Part shown: one piece after another, positions 15,665 through 46,463 of the stretch
Layout of the letters: each line of letters opens with the position of its first letter
Position numbering within the stretch: the first letter of the stretch is position 1
From: Caulobacteraceae bacterium
GTDB taxonomy: Bacteria > Pseudomonadota > Alphaproteobacteria > Caulobacterales > Caulobacteraceae
Direction: 5' to 3'
NCBI GenBank assembly: GCA_947475415.1
Contig: CANJLH010000004.1
Location: 186,001 to 250,000, forward strand
Length of the DNA stretch: 64,000 nucleotides
The notes under the pieces: model-generated
Databases searched by the model: none
Told to the model about the DNA's origin: nothing
What the model saw: only the letters and a program-made list of their open reading frames with translations
Made by a program: the position numbers and the translations under genes

Positions 15665-15709
15665 AGCGCGGCGCTTGCGGCGCGGGCATGCTTGAAGCAT
15701 TCAGGCGTC

Positions 15710-16465
15710 ATGGATCTATCCTCCTTCCTCACCGTCCCCCAGGCCGGCGCGCTATCCGCGTTTTTTCAGGTCGTCATGATCGACGTGGCCCTGGCCGGCG
15801 ATAACGCCGTGGCGGTCGGTCTGTCCGCCGCTGGACTGCCGCCCAAACAACGCCGCACCGCGATCTTCCTGGGGCTGGGCGGCGCAGTGGTGATGCTCAT
15901 CGGCTTCGCCTTGATCACCGTTCAGCTGCTTCAGGTGGTGGGGCTGCTGCTGGCTGGCGGACTCCTGCTGCTGTGGGTCTGCTGGAAGATGTTCCGTGAC
16001 CTGGGCGCGCAGGGTCGTGAGCAGTTCGCCGAGGGTGAAGCCGCGCTGGAAGACGCCACCGGCGTCGATATCGGCGCGCAGCCCAGGAATGCCCCAAAGG
16101 CGAAAACCATGGGTCAGGCGCTACTGCAGATCCTGATCGCCGACCTGACCATGTCCCTGGACAATGTGCTGGCCGTGGCCGGCGCGGCGCGGGAGCATCC
16201 GCAAGTGCTGATCGTGGGCCTGTTGCTTTCGATCACCCTGATGGGCGTGGCGGCGACCTGGATCGCCAAGCTGCTGCATCGCTACCGCTGGCTGGGTTAT
16301 GTCGGCCTGGTCATCGTGCTTGGCGTCTCCCTGCGGATGATCTGGGAGGGACACCGCGCCGTGGTCATGGAAACCGACAGGGTCGCAGCCTACAACGCCA
16401 TGGCGCCTGGACTGTTGGACATCACGCCTGAGGAATTGGCGGAACACGCCCGCCGCGGCAGATAG
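15710..16465 (+). CDS. TerC/YjbE-family integral membrane protein
   Basis: A 251-residue inner membrane protein with about seven hydrophobic segments. The two TerC-type acidic motifs are present: VALAGDNAVAVGLSAAGL near residue 25 and ADLTMSLDNVLAVAGA near residue 145. Family members are linked to metal ion (Mn) export or tellurite resistance, so metal transport is a likely role, not proven. ATG at 15710 is preferred to the TTG at 15692. It converges on metG with a 3-nt spacer. Confidence 0.8.
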   Translation: MDLSSFLTVPQAGALSAFFQVVMIDVALAGDNAVAVGLSAAGLPPKQRRTAIFLGLGGAVVMLIGFALITVQLLQVVGLLLAGGLLLLWVCWKMFRDLGAQGREQFAEGEAALEDATGVDIGAQPRNAPKAKTMGQALLQILIADLTMSLDNVLAVAGAAREHPQVLIVGLLLSITLMGVAATWIAKLLHRYRWLGYVGLVIVLGVSLRMIWEGHRAVVMETDRVAAYNAMAPGLLDITPEELAEHARRGR

Positions 16466-36480: not shown

Positions 36481-37746
36481 TCAGGGCGAATTCGGAGCCA
36501 TTCCGAGAATTTGCAGAACAGTATCACTGTCAAAGCCCTGCTTGTCCGCGAGGTGGAACAATCGCTCAGCCTCTGACCTGTCTGCCTGGACCCCATCGCC
36601 GTTCAGATATTGGTAGGCGAGGTCGTAACTTGCCGCACCGTCTCCCAGATCCGAGGCCTTCTTGCGGTGGCTGGCGGCCTCCGCCTTGTCAATCGTTACG
36701 CCCTTGCCCTCGAAATACATCGTGCCCAAAAGACGGCTGGCCAGCGGGAATTGCTTTGGCTCAAGTTCGCGAAAAATACTGAGCGCCTTACCGTAATCCT
36801 GTGCGACGCCAATTCCTTCAAAGTAACACTGGCCAAGTTGCAGCCGCGCGGGCAACCGCCCCCTTTGTTCCGCGGCCTGCACCAGCTTTATGCCAGCCTC
36901 AACATCCTTCGGAACAGTGTCGGTCCCGTACAGTAGAATTCTACCAAGTAACAACTGCGCGAAAACATTCTCGTCGCTCGCCGACTCCCTCAAATATTTG
37001 ATCGCCATCTGCTTGTCGACTTCGACAGCGTAGCCAAACCAATACATCATATAGAGACCGAATTTCGACTGCGAATCATCCTTTGAAGCGCCGGCCTGGC
37101 ACCACTTCAAGGCTTCGGGGTCGCTCATAGCTACGCCGACACCGTAGAAATTCATGAGACAAAACAAACCATCCGCCTGGGCGTCGCCCTTCTTCGCCAT
37201 AGCGATGATCTTGTCCGCGCCGGTGTGTTCGACGATCTTCCGTGTCATCGGGACAAGTTCGAGCTCACTGAACTCATCCTGCGTCAGTCCAAAGCGCTGG
37301 TAGGGATAAGCCTCGTGTCGATTTGCAACGAGAATGGCAACCACGAGGATTGCAACGGCCGCCAGCGCCATCAGTCGGGCGCGTTTGTTTGCCATCAGGT
37401 GCTTAAGGACACTCTCGCGCGATCCGACCGCGGGGACGTCCAGATCGAGCACCCTCGCCCACGCCGTCACCGCCTCAGCAGCATATGACTCTGCGACGGC
37501 GTGCTCACGGGTGAGGAGTGCGCTCTCACGAGCAACCGCCTCGCGCGCAAATGCCGCCGGCGTCGATTTGAGACGCGCCGCCACGCCTGCTCGCAATGCG
37601 GTGACGGCGGCTGTGATTTGACCTCGTTGCTCGGGCAACCGGTCGGCCAGCAGCCCACGACAACGAATATCGTCAAAGAGCGCGCCTTCGCCGCCAAGGG
37701 TCTTCAGCTCTCGAAGCGCCGCCTCCAGGGTTATCTTCCCCGACAT
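36481..37746 (-). CDS. membrane-anchored Sel1-repeat protein
   Basis: A 421-residue protein. An N-terminal cytoplasmic region of about 125 residues is followed by one membrane segment (ARLMALAAVAILVVAILVAN). The C-terminal part has Sel1-like (TPR) repeats, e.g. LGQCYFEGIGVAQDYGKALS and LLGTMYFEGKGVTIDKAEAA. Sel1 repeats mediate protein interactions. The ATG at 37746 follows the vWA stop by 2 nt, so the two genes form an operon divergent from the kinase operon. It is probably a scaffold for the signalling module. Confidence 0.75.
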   Translation of the reverse strand: MSGKITLEAALRELKTLGGEGALFDDIRCRGLLADRLPEQRGQITAAVTALRAGVAARLKSTPAAFAREAVARESALLTREHAVAESYAAEAVTAWARVLDLDVPAVGSRESVLKHLMANKRARLMALAAVAILVVAILVANRHEAYPYQRFGLTQDEFSELELVPMTRKIVEHTGADKIIAMAKKGDAQADGLFCLMNFYGVGVAMSDPEALKWCQAGASKDDSQSKFGLYMMYWFGYAVEVDKQMAIKYLRESASDENVFAQLLLGRILLYGTDTVPKDVEAGIKLVQAAEQRGRLPARLQLGQCYFEGIGVAQDYGKALSIFRELEPKQFPLASRLLGTMYFEGKGVTIDKAEAASHRKKASDLGDGAASYDLAYQYLNGDGVQADRSEAERLFHLADKQGFDSDTVLQILGMAPNSP

Positions 37747-37748
37747 GT

Positions 37749-38456
37749 TCAACTATCCCAGATGAACGGATCAGGCGGATTGGCGGCTACGCCCGTTTGC
37801 AGAACATCGCGCAAGCTCCCCCGGCCGGCCGCCTGTATGGTTACTGTGCTTGCCCAGCGCATGCGATTGGCGAGTTCGCCAGCATCACGGGCGTCCAGTG
37901 GGGCTCCGCCATCGGGCCCTATAAACGCCTGCAGGATTTGCAGATCTGCGTCCGGTCCAATTGCGATAGCGATACGAACGGCTCCGGCGACGCAAAGCGG
38001 CGCTGATTCAAGTTTGGCGAAGCCCTCGCGGAAATCATCGGTTGGCTGTCCATCAGAAACCAGGATTAAGACCGGCGGCAGAATTCTTCCGGTCAACCGC
38101 GCAGGGTCGAGTTCCTCGGCGAGCAGACTGAGCGCGGCGCCCAAGTCGGTCAGGCCGGCAGCAGAGATGTCTTCCCACACCACGTCGTGGAGTGGTGTCG
38201 CCGGGCCGCGCCATGATGCGCCGTCAGAAAATGTAAGAACTCGAATGTAGACGTCGGCCTCTGGATTATCGTCAGCGGCCTTCTTCATAGCCGGTAACGC
38301 GCCGCGAACAGCATAGTTCAACGACTTTATCTTCTCACCCTGCATTGAATTCGAGCAGTCTATGATCAAAAACAGATACAGGCTCCGGCGCTGGACACCG
38401 AAGAAGTCGAACGTCTTTGCACCGCCGCTGACCGACGAAGTGGGATTTTCAGCCAT
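37749..38456 (-). CDS. vWA-domain protein, TerY-like
   Basis: A 235-residue protein with one von Willebrand A domain. The MIDAS metal site is complete: DCSNS at residues 33-37, Thr in LTDLGAALS near residue 126 and Asp in VSDGQPTDD near residue 150. The closest recalled relatives are the TerY proteins of TerY-P triads, which act with a kinase and a PP2C phosphatase. ATG 38456 has AAGG upstream. No signal peptide. Confidence 0.8.
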   Translation of the reverse strand: MAENPTSSVSGGAKTFDFFGVQRRSLYLFLIIDCSNSMQGEKIKSLNYAVRGALPAMKKAADDNPEADVYIRVLTFSDGASWRGPATPLHDVVWEDISAAGLTDLGAALSLLAEELDPARLTGRILPPVLILVSDGQPTDDFREGFAKLESAPLCVAGAVRIAIAIGPDADLQILQAFIGPDGGAPLDARDAGELANRMRWASTVTIQAAGRGSLRDVLQTGVAANPPDPFIWDS

Positions 38457-38611
38457 CAAGGAACCTTAACAGATGTTCCCGCCAGCACACTAGTCCACGC
38501 CCATTCCTGCCAACCTTTGGATCCACGAACCGAGTTCCGATTGACCAGAAGATCACTATCGTCGAGCGGCGCTGTAAATTAGCATCACACCTTGAAGATG
38601 GACCATGTGCG

Positions 38612-39925
38612 GTGGCTGACACTTTTCGCATTCTTCCGGTAGGCACAACGTTGCGGATCGGCCGCACCGGCCAACAATGCCGCATCCGCAGCTTCATGGA
38701 CTCGGGTTCGCAGGGTGCCGTCTATGAAGTGGATGTCGACGGCGAAAGATTTGCGCTGAAGTGGTATCATTCAATGATCGCGCGGGATGAACGCCTGCGC
38801 GAACGAGTCCGCCGGGCGGTCGAACGCGGCGCACCCGATAACCGTTTTCTTTGGCCGCTAGCCGCCGTGGAAGCTGGCGGCGGCTTCGGCTATTTGATGA
38901 ACCTTCGACCTAGCGGATGCGTCAAGTTCACGCGGCTGTTTTCCTCTCGGGCTTCGGACCGAGTTATTCTGCCGCTTCGAGACCGCGCCGCGGTCGGCGC
39001 GGAAATAGCTGAGGCCTTTTTTAGCCTTCACGCCAAGGGGCTGTGTTACCAGGACATCAACTTCGGAGCCATCTTCTTGGATCCGCAGCGCCTTTCAGTA
39101 TTGATCTGCGATAATGACAACGTCGATGTTGACGGACAGCCAGCGACCGTGGCCGGAACGCCTCGCTTCATGGCCCCAGAGATTGTGCGAGGCGATGCAC
39201 AACCCTCGGCCGATACGGATTTGCACTCGCTCGCGGTGTTGCTATTCTATCTCGTTTTCTTTCATCACCCACTGGATGACTTGACCGCCGCGAGTCGGCC
39301 GGTCTTTGCGCGCACCGACGAACTGGAAGTATTTGGCGAACATCCGTCCTTTGTGTTCGCTCCTGACGTCGATGTAGCTGAGTTGGAACGCCACGGACTT
39401 GGTCCTCAGCGGCGCCTCTGGGGCGAACTCGCGGAGCGGACGCAGCAACTGTTCATCCGCGCATTTGACGCCGGATTGAACGCGCCACGCGCTCGCGTCA
39501 TTGAAACCGAATGGATTGAGGCGCTGCGTGACTTGAGGGACAGCTGCATCGCCTGCGATTCATGCGGCTTTGAAATACCCTGGAAAAAAAGCTCCGGCCA
39601 AGCTGGTGATTGTTGCTGGTGCGGCGCACGCCTCCAGGCGTCGCCCCGCCTGCAGATCGGAGGTGCGCACATCGTACTTGCGCCGGGCGCGCGCATCTAT
39701 GGCTCTCGGCTGGGACTGCCCAGCGCACAGTTGAACAATGGCGTGGCCGGCGTCGTGGAGGGTGATCACAGCGAAATTCAGTTGAGAAACCTGACCTCGG
39801 CGACCTGGAGCATCCGTTGTCGAGACGGCAGGGTCCGTGCGGCATCGCCCGACTCATCCGTCGCCCTTGCCGTGGGCGACGTACTGGAGTTCGGCGGCCT
39901 GAAACTTGGAACGGTTGAAATTTGA
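38612..39925 (+). CDS. atypical Ser/Thr kinase with zinc ribbon and FHA-like C-terminus (TerY-P type)
   Basis: A 437-residue protein. The kinase domain (about residues 25-305) has the glycine loop DSGSQGAVYEV, Lys50 (RFALKWY), catalytic Asp148 in CYQDINF and D167-N-D169 (ICDNDNV) in place of DFG, a pattern I recall from TerY-P kinases. APE is at 188-190. A zinc ribbon (CDSCG ... CWCG, 315-338) and an FHA-like end (from about 345) follow. Start GTG 38612. The stop overlaps the phosphatase start. It lies divergent to the vWA gene across a 155-bp gap. Confidence 0.75.
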   Translation: MADTFRILPVGTTLRIGRTGQQCRIRSFMDSGSQGAVYEVDVDGERFALKWYHSMIARDERLRERVRRAVERGAPDNRFLWPLAAVEAGGGFGYLMNLRPSGCVKFTRLFSSRASDRVILPLRDRAAVGAEIAEAFFSLHAKGLCYQDINFGAIFLDPQRLSVLICDNDNVDVDGQPATVAGTPRFMAPEIVRGDAQPSADTDLHSLAVLLFYLVFFHHPLDDLTAASRPVFARTDELEVFGEHPSFVFAPDVDVAELERHGLGPQRRLWGELAERTQQLFIRAFDAGLNAPRARVIETEWIEALRDLRDSCIACDSCGFEIPWKKSSGQAGDCCWCGARLQASPRLQIGGAHIVLAPGARIYGSRLGLPSAQLNNGVAGVVEGDHSEIQLRNLTSATWSIRCRDGRVRAASPDSSVALAVGDVLEFGGLKLGTVEI

Positions 39926-40953
39926 GCCGCCGGGGCTCCAAACTTGTCGCGGTCAGCGTCCGTGGCGCCGGGCATATCCGTCGCGGGAGGCCTAACGAGG
40001 ACTTCGTCGGCGCTGAACCATTCGAGCCGGACGGTTGGGTAATCGCAGTCAGCGACGGTCATGGGGCCGAGTTGCACTCGCGTAGCAATATCGGTTCCCG
40101 ATTCGCCGTTGAAGCCGCGCTGGCCGAAATGCGCCGCATCAATTGGCAAACAGATTCGGTCAACAGCGCCGCGCCGTTGGTCAACGGACTGATCAACGCA
40201 ATCATTCAACTGTGGCGCGACAAGGTCGAGGCCGACCTGCAACACACGCCCCTGGATTCGGCCGCCGCCGCCGCCTCCGAGGCGGCGGGTCTTGGGCGGG
40301 TCGGCCCCTATGGCGCGACGCTATTGGCGGCGACTGCCCGCGGGGCTCAAATGCTGGTCCTGCAGATCGGCGACGGTGACTTTTTCATACGCGGTGATGA
40401 CGGCTCGATTATCCGACCATTGCCAGATGACCCCCGGGAAGGGGAGGAAACCGCTTCACTTTGCATGATCACGCCGGAAAGGCATGCTCGCTGGCGCATT
40501 CTGCCGCGGCCGGTCGCCGTACTGGCGGCGACCGACGGATTCAGCAAGTCCTTTGCTGACCCCAGTGAGGCTGCGCGGGCGATCGCGGCGCTCCTCGACC
40601 GGATGGCGGATGGTGAGGACGATCTGCAGACGGACCTCTCCGCTTTATCTGAACGAGGGAGCTCCGACGACATAAGCCTTGCGGCCTGGCTGCTCGATGC
40701 CGAGCAGGGGCGCCCAGCCTCGCATGAGGCGGCGCTTCCAAGGCCTCACCTGCCCTGGCTGCGTTTGATACTTCTTGCAGCCGCGGCCGCGTTCGCCGCA
40801 TTGATCGGTATTCAATTCGTAGGGTCTGCCGAACGCAATCCTGAAAAGCCCCGCGGGCGGCCCCACTTGACCGAACCGACGAGCACAGGTTCAGTGAAAA
40901 AGCCAAGTGGTGGGGCGGGTGATGGTCAATTCGACAGAGAACGGCCTAAGTGA
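39922..40953 (+). CDS. PP2C-type protein phosphatase with C-terminal membrane segment
   Basis: A 343-residue protein. The PP2C metal site shows RPNEDF (E26, D27), SDGHG (D45-G48), the LQIGDGDFF motif near residue 145, and ATDGFSKSF and SSDDISLAAWL in the last third. One membrane segment (LRLILLAAAAAFAALIGIQF) lies near residue 280 and the tail is short and polar. The catalytic domain is therefore cytoplasmic and membrane-tethered. The TTG start overlaps the kinase stop by 4 nt (TTGA), giving coupled expression with the kinase it probably opposes. Confidence 0.8.
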   Translation: MSRRGSKLVAVSVRGAGHIRRGRPNEDFVGAEPFEPDGWVIAVSDGHGAELHSRSNIGSRFAVEAALAEMRRINWQTDSVNSAAPLVNGLINAIIQLWRDKVEADLQHTPLDSAAAAASEAAGLGRVGPYGATLLAATARGAQMLVLQIGDGDFFIRGDDGSIIRPLPDDPREGEETASLCMITPERHARWRILPRPVAVLAATDGFSKSFADPSEAARAIAALLDRMADGEDDLQTDLSALSERGSSDDISLAAWLLDAEQGRPASHEAALPRPHLPWLRLILLAAAAAFAALIGIQFVGSAERNPEKPRGRPHLTEPTSTGSVKKPSGGAGDGQFDRERPK

Positions 40954-42424
40954 CGGTTATACCCGCCACGAATTGTATCCGTGGCTGAACGTCCGAGCCT
41001 CATTTGCTGAGAGCCGGAGTTTTTGGCTACTTGTCGGCGTAGTGGTTCTATCGGGCCTATTGTTCACCGCCAGAGACGCCCCCGCGGTTCTCGTCAACAG
41101 CTTGGCTGGCGTTGTATTGGTTGGATACGTTGTAGCCCTTCACGTATTCCTGCGCTCCAGCATGACGCTTGCCGCGTTATTCGGCGTATTTCTGTTGGTC
41201 ATTGTCCTGATGACCGTACCGCTAGTTCCTGTTCCGGGGGAAAAAGGGCTTCAGGCCCCCATGTGGCTGTGGTTCTGGTTCTGGCGTGACTTCCTGCCGG
41301 GGAACGCGCTCGCCCAGCACGGCCCATTCCCGCAGGCATGGCTGAATTCCTTCCTGTCGAACTTCCTATCGGCCGGTGTGGCGGAAGACACCTTCAAGCT
41401 CGCCCCGGTGGGCATCTTCATTCTGCTCAGCCAATGGCTGCGACGTCGCGCCGATCAAGGCAACGTATCAGCCGCGGTCTGGGCCGCGCGCTTTGACATG
41501 AGCCGGCCAACCACCGTGCTCATGACGGCCTTCGCGGCGGCGGCGGCCTTCGTCTATGTGGAGACCGTCTATTTGTATGTGCCACAGGCCCAGGCGAACG
41601 CCGCGCCGATCGCCCTGCAGGCCATGGCCGGGAGCGGGATCGATCCGGACACCGCGACGGCCATCGCGCGCGGTTTCGTCGGATACAAGGGCGTTGAGCT
41701 TCTCGTCCCTCGCCTACTGAGTTTCTTGATGGGGCACGGCGCCTATGCGGCGATCGTCGCCTACGGTGTAATTCTGGCTCAACGCCGCCCGAAGCAATGG
41801 CCTATCGCGTTAGGCAGCGCAGTCTTGCTTTCCGCCTTCGTCCACGGCTCCTGGAACACATTCGCCAATCTCCTGCTGATTTTGCCCATCAGTTTTGCTG
41901 GGGGCTACATATTGCTCGCGATTTGCGCTCGGGTGGCTGGGCTCGACCACGAAAGCGGCTATGCGCCTGCAGAGATCGTAGGGGAATCCATTGTGTCCGC
42001 GCGACGCCGGGCCACATCTGCCCCCCCAGCGCCCGAGGTCTACCAAGCCAGGCCGCTTCTCCCGGCGGCAGCCGAGCCACTGGCTCTGCAACCGCCCCCT
42101 TCACAGGTGGTGGGCGCCCTGACTGTCCAGTTGAAAGGCTCCCGTCCCAGAACTGTGTTGCTTCAGAGGGCGGCGGTCCTGACATTCACCGAAGAGGCAA
42201 AGTCGGATCCAACGCTTGAGGCTGTGCTGATCGAAGTCGTCGCCGACCCGAATAACCCGCGAAGATTGGGTCTGCGCAATGTTGGATCACTTTCGTTGCT
42301 CGCGACCGCGCCGGACGGTCGGCAAGTCGAACTCGCGACTGGGCGCACCATGAACCTGGTCACCGGAGCGCGAATTTCGGCCGGAGCTCTCGATTGCGAC
42401 GTCGTTGCTGTCGATAGTGACTGA
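40922..42424 (+). CDS. PrsW-like intramembrane protease with C-terminal FHA-like domain
   Basis: A 500-residue protein with about eight membrane segments. PrsW/CPBP-type motifs are visible: E155-D-x-x-K159 (GVAEDTFKL, where EExxK is usual), E214 in FVYVETVYLY, H272 in MGHGAYA and H308 in FVHGSWN. Residues from about 400 form a soluble domain with an FHA-like pattern (RLGLRNVGSLSLLATAPDGR). The ATG 40922 overlaps the phosphatase gene by 32 nt; a GTG at 40907 is an alternative. A role in processing a membrane-bound regulator controlled by the kinase module is inferred. Confidence 0.65.
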   Translation: MVNSTENGLSDGYTRHELYPWLNVRASFAESRSFWLLVGVVVLSGLLFTARDAPAVLVNSLAGVVLVGYVVALHVFLRSSMTLAALFGVFLLVIVLMTVPLVPVPGEKGLQAPMWLWFWFWRDFLPGNALAQHGPFPQAWLNSFLSNFLSAGVAEDTFKLAPVGIFILLSQWLRRRADQGNVSAAVWAARFDMSRPTTVLMTAFAAAAAFVYVETVYLYVPQAQANAAPIALQAMAGSGIDPDTATAIARGFVGYKGVELLVPRLLSFLMGHGAYAAIVAYGVILAQRRPKQWPIALGSAVLLSAFVHGSWNTFANLLLILPISFAGGYILLAICARVAGLDHESGYAPAEIVGESIVSARRRATSAPPAPEVYQARPLLPAAAEPLALQPPPSQVVGALTVQLKGSRPRTVLLQRAAVLTFTEEAKSDPTLEAVLIEVVADPNNPRRLGLRNVGSLSLLATAPDGRQVELATGRTMNLVTGARISAGALDCDVVAVDSD

Positions 42425-45836: not shown

Positions 45837-46463
45837 ATGTCCTATCCGTTCTCAGCCACCTTCCGTGACCTGCTGGCCTCCGCCTGTGCAGATTTTCCGC
45901 GCATACCCTATGAGGGGCCCGAGCTGAAGCGCTCGGCGGTTGCAGTTGTGTTGACCCAGGCCGACGACGAGTCCGGGGAGACGGCGTTCCTGCTCACCCG
46001 TCGCTCACCACGGTTGAATGCGCATGCGGGCCAGTGGGCGCTGCCGGGCGGGCGACTGGACCCGGGTGAAACGCTTGAGGAAGCTGCGCTTCGTGAACTG
46101 CACGAGGAGTTGGGGCTGCGCCTTGAGCCGCAGCATATCCTGGGAGTTCTGGACGACTACGCCACCCGCACGGGCTATTCGATTTCTCCGGTTATCACCT
46201 GGCTTGAGGACGCCTCGGCGCTCGCCCCCAACCCGGCGGAGGTGGCGTCAGTGCACCACGTGCGCTTGGATCACATCGGTCGCCAGGAGTCAGTGGAGTT
46301 CTTTTCAATACCCGAAAGCGAGCGGCCGGTGATCCGCCTGCATTTTGACGGCAACAAGGTGCACGCGCCTACCGCGGCCCTGGTCTACCAGCTACGTGAA
46401 CTGATCGCCGGGCGGATCACCCGTGTGGCCGAGCTGGAGCAGCCGGTGTTCGCCTGGAAGTGA
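45837..46463 (+). CDS. Nudix hydrolase, CoA/nucleoside diphosphate type
   Basis: A 208-residue protein with a complete Nudix box: ALPGGRLDPGETLEEAALRE then LHEELGL (residues about 63-89), which binds Mg and cleaves diphosphates. The sequence LTRRSPRLNAHAGQWALPGG upstream is typical of CoA pyrophosphatases. The ATG at 45837 gives MSYPFSATF. It lies alone downstream of the amidohydrolase. Confidence 0.85.
   Translation: MSYPFSATFRDLLASACADFPRIPYEGPELKRSAVAVVLTQADDESGETAFLLTRRSPRLNAHAGQWALPGGRLDPGETLEEAALRELHEELGLRLEPQHILGVLDDYATRTGYSISPVITWLEDASALAPNPAEVASVHHVRLDHIGRQESVEFFSIPESERPVIRLHFDGNKVHAPTAALVYQLRELIAGRITRVAELEQPVFAWK

Follow-up and report, generated by a model that had tools for sequence, protein, structure and literature searches.

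The window analysed here is a stretch of 64,000 nt from a Caulobacteraceae bacterium (GCA_947475415.1, contig CANJLH010000004.1, positions 186,001-250,000). At 36481-42424 it carries a module encoding a TerY-like von Willebrand factor A (vWA) protein, a Ser/Thr kinase-like protein, a PP2C phosphatase, a Sel1 protein and a PrsW-type intramembrane protease. With slightly less than even confidence, we read this module as an accessory TerY-P-like phospho-switch that would recruit proteins tagged with a common N-terminal domain (NTD), the membrane-anchored ones being cut by PrsW under phosphorylation control. The gene set is conserved in other genomes. New here are the unnamed NTD on the Sel1 protein and its counterparts, the homology between the C-terminal tails of the kinase and PrsW, and the transmembrane (TM) segments of the NTD partners, which track the presence of PrsW. 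The features of the module are listed below by their positions in the window.

36481..37752, minus strand: NTD-TM-Sel1 protein, 423 aa; Pfam Sel1 2e-25 and NTD profile; predicted membrane-anchored partner or substrate
37414..37752, minus strand: NTD, residues 1-113 of the Sel1 protein; helical prediction of low confidence; common with partner proteins of related loci
37324..37380, minus strand: predicted TM helix, residues 125-143 of the Sel1 protein; Kyte-Doolittle 2.68; candidate PrsW cleavage region
37749..38459, minus strand: TerY-like vWA protein, 236 aa; Pfam VWA 9.5e-6; complete metal-ion-dependent adhesion site (MIDAS)
38460..38611, no strand: divergent intergenic region, 152 bases; both promoters presumed inside
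38612..39925, plus strand: Ser/Thr kinase-like protein, 437 aa; kinase domain, zinc ribbon and modelled FHA-fold tail; Pkinase 3.5e-11
39545..39622, plus strand: kinase zinc ribbon (C312/C315, C334/C337), by motif check
39623..39922, plus strand: kinase C-terminal tail, residues 338-437; reciprocal profile matches with the PrsW tail
39922..40953, plus strand: PP2C phosphatase, 343 aa; PP2C_2 9.2e-33; predicted C-terminal TM helix, residues 282-300, bases 40765-40821
40907..42424, plus strand: PrsW-type intramembrane protease with modelled C-terminal FHA-fold tail, 505 aa; PrsW-protease 1.7e-10; E/H residues invariant in four homologues
42089..42421, plus strand: PrsW C-terminal FHA-fold tail, residues 395-505; AlphaFold2 (AF2) model and structure search; no FHA match by sequence

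Gene content of the module

The initial annotation of this DNA had placed a five-gene set here, and the open reading frames (ORFs) and Pfam families bear it out. All five ORFs are present, with the Sel1 and vWA genes on the minus strand and the kinase, PP2C and PrsW genes on the plus strand, and all five Pfam matches lie above the curated cut-offs. The overlap or near-contact described within each strand was also found: the gene ends overlap by 4 bases at Sel1/vWA, 4 bases at kinase/PP2C and 47 bases at PP2C/PrsW, the last counted from the listed GTG start of PrsW, 15 bases inside which lies an alternative in-frame ATG. The term "fused", which had been applied to the tie with PrsW, holds for the gene neighbourhood and not for the proteins. 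No sigma-70-like promoter match was found in the 152-base divergent region.

The three core proteins have the features ascribed to them earlier, namely a vWA protein with a full MIDAS (DCSNS, T104 and D136 by motif check), a DND-variant kinase with a zinc ribbon (CDNDN stands for DFG, and two CxxC pairs follow the kinase domain) and a PP2C that one predicted TM helix would tether to the membrane. The metal-site motifs of the PP2C read DGHG, TDG and GSSDD. The triad profiles match a Bartonella ter-locus kinase at 2e-30 and vWA at 6e-25 and an Aromatoleum kinase at 3e-25, and reach Escherichia coli YegI, PphC and YegL more weakly, and the proposed assignment of the vWA, PP2C and zinc-ribbon kinase to a TerY-P-like triad is supported by these profiles. 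The protease matches PF13367 with 41.2 bits (cut-off 23.5). Its catalytic-type residues are E160-D161, E219, H277 and H313, of which E160, E219, H277 and H313 are invariant in four sequences; the EE motif is ED in the window and in a Hyphomonadaceae metagenome-assembled genome (MAG; G157), and a stricter pattern tried for the E219 motif gave no match.

Conservation, distribution and mobility

PrsW was found in 11 genomes besides that of the window, with the kinase and PP2C genes adjacent to it in all 11; the profiles for the locus scans had been built from L010, L011 and the window. Nine of the 11 loci (L010, L011, L024-L030) have the full set on one strand in the order kinase, PP2C, PrsW, vWA, NTD protein 1, NTD protein 2. 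The co-occurrence on which the initial annotation depended is therefore found in other genomes, and a chance neighbourhood is ruled out by this conservation. A contig end truncates the kinase of L029, the contig of L031 ends inside PrsW, and the assemblies have broken frames in the PrsW of L030 and the vWA of L027. G157 has the kinase (cut by the contig end), PP2C and PrsW on one contig and the vWA and NTD-Sel1 genes inside another, so the two divergent halves appear separable yet occur in the same genome; as G157 is a MAG, a binning error is possible.

In samples of 200 genomes from the window's order, the searches for PrsW, for PP2C and for the NTD each led to the same two genomes, that of the window and G157. 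PrsW was present in at least 3 of 385 genomes in the class sample (the window's included) and at least 1 of 398 in the phylum sample (the window's own), and the kinase profile matched in at least 5 of the latter 398; these counts are lower bounds, because the large class and phylum scans scored three or four first-look candidates per genome, and several genomes are fragmented. The frequency of PrsW was 2/25 in the order of genome G538 and 8/76 in that of G383, and a PrsW search of plasmids gave no match.

The module is rare and mobile-looking. Its GC content is 60.4% vs 64.4% for the window, near the lowest stretch of equal length (60.3%), and third-position GC is 0.62-0.70 in the module genes vs 0.75-0.85 in four neighbours, which suggests that the module was gained horizontally. 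L010 and L024, from one genus, match over 6.9 kb covering six genes; beyond it they have in common a single match of 338 bases and short repeats. For L025 and L028, which belong to one family but to different genera, the match is confined to the module apart from 55 bases. Across the loci, the pairwise identities of the five sets of proteins vary together (Spearman 0.84-0.96, without a shared-ancestry control; joint inheritance alone would give it). No notable repeat pair was found at the flanks of the window module. Direct repeats of ~115-130 bases lie on both sides of the six-gene module in L010 (6463-6574 and 13459-13571) and L024 (6705-6831 and 13721-13846), and further copies elsewhere in L010 point to either a transfer route or a dispersed intergenic repeat.

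The tail common to the kinase and PrsW

Profiles of the kinase tails match 11/11 PrsW tails (6e-9 to 7e-23), and profiles of the PrsW tails match 16/16 kinase tails (3.5e-4 to 1e-17). By this reciprocal comparison the C-terminal tails of the kinase and PrsW are homologous. An AF2 model of the tail, built from four rows (window and L004 only), had a predicted local distance difference test score (pLDDT) of 73.7 and a predicted template modelling score (pTM) of 0.63. When this model was used in a Foldseek search, the 23 best rows were FHA proteins, TIFA and OdhI among them (best E 0.011), and row 24 was a SMAD MH2 domain. The best VIA match was the FHA domain of MDC1 (Z 9.7, root mean square deviation 2.7, 97 aligned), with SMAD MH2 at 7.7-7.9 among the matches listed. 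The modelled tail thus has an FHA-like fold. The phosphothreonine-site signature of FHA domains (GR, SxxH, N) is absent from the tails, in the alignment of which only L18, N57 and G86 are invariant. Because the fold occurs without the sequence signature, we read the tail as a docking domain that probably lacks the usual mode of phosphothreonine recognition; an FHA end of the classical type that binds phosphopeptides was rejected. The FHA-like end that had been noted on the protease stands as a modelled fold and fails as a member of the FHA family by sequence, and a homologous domain is present on the kinase as well.

The N-terminal domain and its cargos

Both membrane proteins at the other loci begin with a stretch homologous to the first ~110 residues of the Sel1 protein. 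An NTD profile built without the window protein matches it at 9e-14. A profile from alphaproteobacteria only (18 copies, window excluded) matches it at 2.9e-10, the best of 362 window ORFs (next 0.1), and scores 34.8 bits, against a maximum of 9.2 among 1000 shuffles. This alphaproteobacterial profile matches NTD copies of a Methylomonas locus at 4e-7 to 8e-4 and copies joined to FGE-sulfatase domains only at 0.0025 to 0.09, and the Methylomonas profile matches the FGE copies at 5e-10 to 1e-7. Neither the Methylomonas-only nor the FGE-only profile matched the window protein convincingly (0.018 and 0.32). No Pfam or NCBIfam model was found for the NTD, and on that ground its identity with a known domain was rejected; its structure model, helical and of low confidence (pLDDT 62.9), was too poor for a structure search.

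In a search of 12 genomes or records, 23 of 25 NTD matches lay at module or triad loci, the second contig of G157 included; the remaining two were weak (0.003 and 0.008), one of them being in an NtrC-like regulator as judged by eye. In the scanned loci, none of the kinase, vWA, PP2C and PrsW proteins is matched by the NTD profiles, and the Methylomonas NTD, searched in plasmids, was found in its own record only.

The NTD is joined to different cargos. Sel1 repeats follow it in the window, G157 and Methylomonas. In the other complete PrsW loci the second NTD protein carries a rhodanese (9/9; for the two scanned with NCBIfam the nearest model was a CxxCW-type one, below its cut-off), and the C-terminus of the first has no Pfam family (9/9). 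Sel1 repeats as the constant output were rejected, since none of the 18 NTD proteins in these nine loci has them and Methylomonas has them without PrsW; the repeats are instead one of several C-terminal cargos on a common NTD. The other cargos near related triads are Tim44-like, Clp_N, ClpX zinc-finger and FGE-sulfatase domains. On plasmid CP157007.1 of Methylomonas sp. AM2-LC (L032 11888-16424), the genes for kinase, vWA and PP2C are followed by five NTD proteins with closely similar NTDs, whose cargos are Sel1, an unnamed part, Tim44-like, Clp_N and the ClpX zinc finger; in the Clp_N and ClpX zinc-finger proteins the NTD stands at the C-terminal end. In family f199, a kinase gene and then an NTD-FGE-sulfatase gene occur in 4/4 loci that hold that side (four genomes, one genus):

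L044, 8981-10078: NTD-FGE-sulfatase gene, downstream of the triad kinase
L045, 4880-6001: NTD-FGE-sulfatase gene, downstream of the triad kinase
L046, 4786-5901: NTD-FGE-sulfatase gene, downstream of the triad kinase
L047, 4970-6112: NTD-FGE-sulfatase gene, downstream of the triad kinase

An mfd-like helicase gene comes after the NTD-FGE gene (by Pfam in L044 and L046). In the f199, Methylomonas and other non-alphaproteobacterial loci, several on short contigs, the PrsW profile matched kinase tails only and no PrsW gene.

Membrane anchoring of the NTD proteins

A TM segment was called where 19 residues reached a Kyte-Doolittle hydropathy of at least 1.6. The window Sel1 protein has a single predicted TM segment, with four K/R before and two after it. 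Such a segment follows the NTD in 18 of the 20 NTD proteins encoded in PrsW loci (1.63 to 3.33); in the two exceptions, NTD protein 1 of L010 and of L024, the segment is 15 residues long (2.45 and 2.62). In loci without PrsW, by contrast, 0/9 NTD proteins have a TM segment between NTD and cargo, and the three that pass the threshold (1.61-1.91) do so within Clp_N or in a stretch that overlaps the FGE domain. The contrast is clearest for Sel1, which is anchored in the window (2.68) and has no such segment in Methylomonas. The presence of PrsW therefore correlates with TM-anchored NTD partners. In the window protein and several others, the charge pattern weakly suggests an orientation with the NTD inside and the cargo outside; for many first NTD proteins it gives no clear call.

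Proposed mechanism and alternatives

From these observations we infer the topology, complex formation, phosphorylation, cleavage and output of the system. A core of vWA adaptor, zinc-ribbon kinase and PP2C would sit at the inner membrane face and act on partners bearing the NTD as a common docking domain. The alphaproteobacterial partners would be single-pass membrane proteins whose variable part (Sel1 in the window, elsewhere rhodanese) is probably periplasmic. PrsW would join the same complex via the FHA-fold tail that it has in common with the kinase, and the phosphorylation state set by the kinase and PP2C would decide whether it cuts in the TM helix of the partner and so sets free either the cytosolic half with the NTD or the periplasmic one. 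The output may be an envelope-stress or defence response. PrsW probably cleaves the membrane-anchored NTD proteins. The reading is based on the adjacency of kinase and PP2C to PrsW in all 11 other genomes and the ordered set in nine, the homologous tails, the TM segments in 18/20 NTD proteins of PrsW loci vs 0/9 cargo linkers elsewhere, the finding of PrsW, PP2C and NTD in the same 2 of 200 genomes of the order, and the module-limited matches (L010/L024, L025/L028) with covarying identities. It also draws on PrsW-FHA fusions having been proposed as signalling peptidases (PMC3482391) and on the reported activity of the analogous E. coli YegI and PphC (PMC13232886).

Several observations weigh against it. 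The catalytic loop of the window kinase, YQDINFGA (bases 39047-39070), has Ala in place of Asn, which 14/14 other kinases with a readable loop keep at the last place; the G157 kinase, whose contig starts at that residue, has the same Ala. The glycine loop of the window kinase (DSGSQG) is degenerate as well, so that this kinase may be weak, dead or a scaffold. With regard to the tails, 0/10 match any Pfam FHA model at E 10, and no FHA chain was found in a PDB profile search with the tail. Of the 18 TM calls, four are marginal (1.63-1.71) and lie in the range of the three in-domain comparison segments (1.61-1.91), and the match between TM segments and PrsW comes from few lineages, which makes it a correlation and not proof. 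The same-genus loci L011/L025, L025/L026, L026/L027 and L028/L029/L030/L031 match in their flanks too, so within two genera the module is not freely mobile. Finally, PrsW could act on an unlinked protein.

The strongest competing explanation, which we regard as possible and less likely than the phospho-switch, is an anti-phage or conflict system in which the triad senses or gates, the NTD fusions are interchangeable effectors, and PrsW acts as a killing or releasing enzyme by damaging the envelope of infected cells. It fits the variable cargo on a constant domain, the sparse distribution at different sites in different genera together with the low GC (60.4% vs 64.4%), the related triads on plasmids and a related kinase on a phage-like contig. 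TerY-P has been reported to be active against T7-like phages (PMC7699616) and to accompany restriction systems (PMC11090510). The window kinase matches the PD-T4-6 defence kinase model at 9.9e-14 over the kinase domain; however, the PADLOC kinase matches mostly cover the kinase domain and involve many models, and so look generic. PADLOC gave no match for the window vWA, PP2C and PrsW or for the two vWA and two PP2C scanned from relatives, and two of the six genes flanking the module match candidate models (PDC-S10 at 1.2e-4; PDC-S07 at 6.8e-11, a NUDIX protein). In addition, Sel1 and rhodanese do not look toxic.

An envelope-stress or protein-quality module without NTD cleavage appears unlikely. 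Here the kinase and PP2C would modify the NTD proteins, and the target of PrsW would be an unlinked membrane protein, such as an anti-sigma factor encoded on the chromosome, in the way that the prototype PrsW of Bacillus subtilis makes the site-1 cut of RsiW (PMC3482391). The Clp_N, ClpX zinc-finger and Tim44-like cargos of the Methylomonas locus do point to protein quality control, but PrsW has its tail in common with the kinase, belongs to the same gene run in 12/12 genomes and occurs with TM-bearing NTD proteins. Least probable is a degenerate locus or pseudokinase scaffold in the window genome, with phosphorylation no longer the signal: the Asn-to-Ala change in the window and its Hyphomonadaceae relative, the degenerate glycine loop and the ED in both PrsW proteins speak for it, yet all five frames are intact and have counterparts, at 40-66% identity, in a relative from a different family, K50, D148 and D167 of the kinase are retained, and E. 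coli YegI, described as lacking conserved motifs, is reported to autophosphorylate (PMC13232886).

The phospho-switch reading can be extended, more speculatively and with a doubtful chance of holding in full, to an undescribed phospho-gated family in which the NTD is a portable address tag. The core would recognise any carrier while cargos are swapped, and PrsW, equipped with the docking tail of the kinase, would have joined when the cargo became membrane-bound, giving gated cleavage. TerY-P-like triads turn up repeatedly among ter, restriction and defence loci, and we know of no target that they phosphorylate. Should the NTD mark their partners, candidate substrates could be listed and directly tested for a class of triads, and the domain itself could serve as a search query. 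If correctly read, the PrsW branch would be an example of Ser/Thr phosphorylation gating intramembrane proteolysis in which a single cluster encodes the protease, its substrate, the kinase and the phosphatase.

Surroundings of the module and related loci

No ter or restriction gene was found among the six flanking genes (PADLOC on all six, Pfam on three), and TerB and TerD were not searched across the rest of the window. The TerC-family gene that had been noted at a distance of 20 kb is real (15692-16465, TerC 1.3e-42); no tie to the module was found, and it was rejected as a component. The flanking NUDIX protein (45837-46463, Pfam 3.6e-21) that matches the candidate defence model PDC-S07 is perhaps an ordinary pyrophosphatase.

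A kinase of the window-kinase family lies at the edge of contig IMGVR_UViG_3300009826_001449 (L049 1-1296; 44% identity to the first row of the query), upstream of genes that resemble, as judged by eye, phage terminase and portal genes. A plasmid of Prevotella sp. E2-28 (L033 8600-19215) carries a kinase with FHA-fold tail, a vWA and a PP2C beside a TerY_C protein, an FGE-family protein, an exonuclease and FtsK, as annotated. The latter is a related triad in a DNA-processing setting.

Comparison with known systems

In a literature search, which did not reach the main ter survey (Anantharaman 2012), no paper visibly paired PrsW with the triad. TerY-P, as given from that survey in the accessible parts of PMC11090510 and PMC4978471, consists of a TerY-like vWA, a PP2C and a kinase with a C-terminal zinc ribbon, and its partners there are tellurite, restriction, helicase, nuclease and type VII secretion components. 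The window resembles it by profile homology and in having a vWA with MIDAS, a PP2C and a C-terminal zinc-ribbon Ser/Thr kinase in one cluster, the missing kinase Asn aside, and differs in that PrsW and NTD-fused membrane partners are added and the kinase bears an FHA-fold tail. E. coli yegL-pphC-yegI likewise has vWA, PP2C and kinase in a small locus, with weak profile matches (2e-7, 6e-10 and 2e-9) that make it a more distant relative of the window triad than the ter-locus proteins. YegI is itself reported to be membrane-bound, the tail profile has no match there, and no PrsW is among the annotated genes of that stretch, for which annotation only was used. In the accessible text of PMC13232886, YegI autophosphorylates and is dephosphorylated by PphC, and the title of a paper cited there describes YegI as lacking conserved motifs.

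Actinobacterial GAP1-N2 loci combine a kinase-ZnR-beta-domain protein with PP2C and vWA (PMC7159879, section 29); unlike the window they are centred on a GTPase with GAP1 and confined to actinobacteria, and the accessible part of that source does not mention PrsW or the NTD. PrsW fused to FHA, PilZ, cNMP or Zn-ribbon domains has been proposed as a signalling peptidase (PMC3482391, section 9). These fusions resemble the window protease in joining PrsW to a signalling domain, whereas the window tail is FHA-like without the signature and common with a kinase, and the accessible part of PMC3482391 mentions no triad or NTD partner. Like the EAD and GAAD domains (as described in the accessible part of PMC7159879), the NTD appears to be a small non-enzymatic domain carried by varied effectors at either protein end. 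EADs by definition also occur on a core protein, and no NTD copy was found on any core protein. The NTD is closest in logic to GAAD, an adaptor found on effectors only (PMC7159879).

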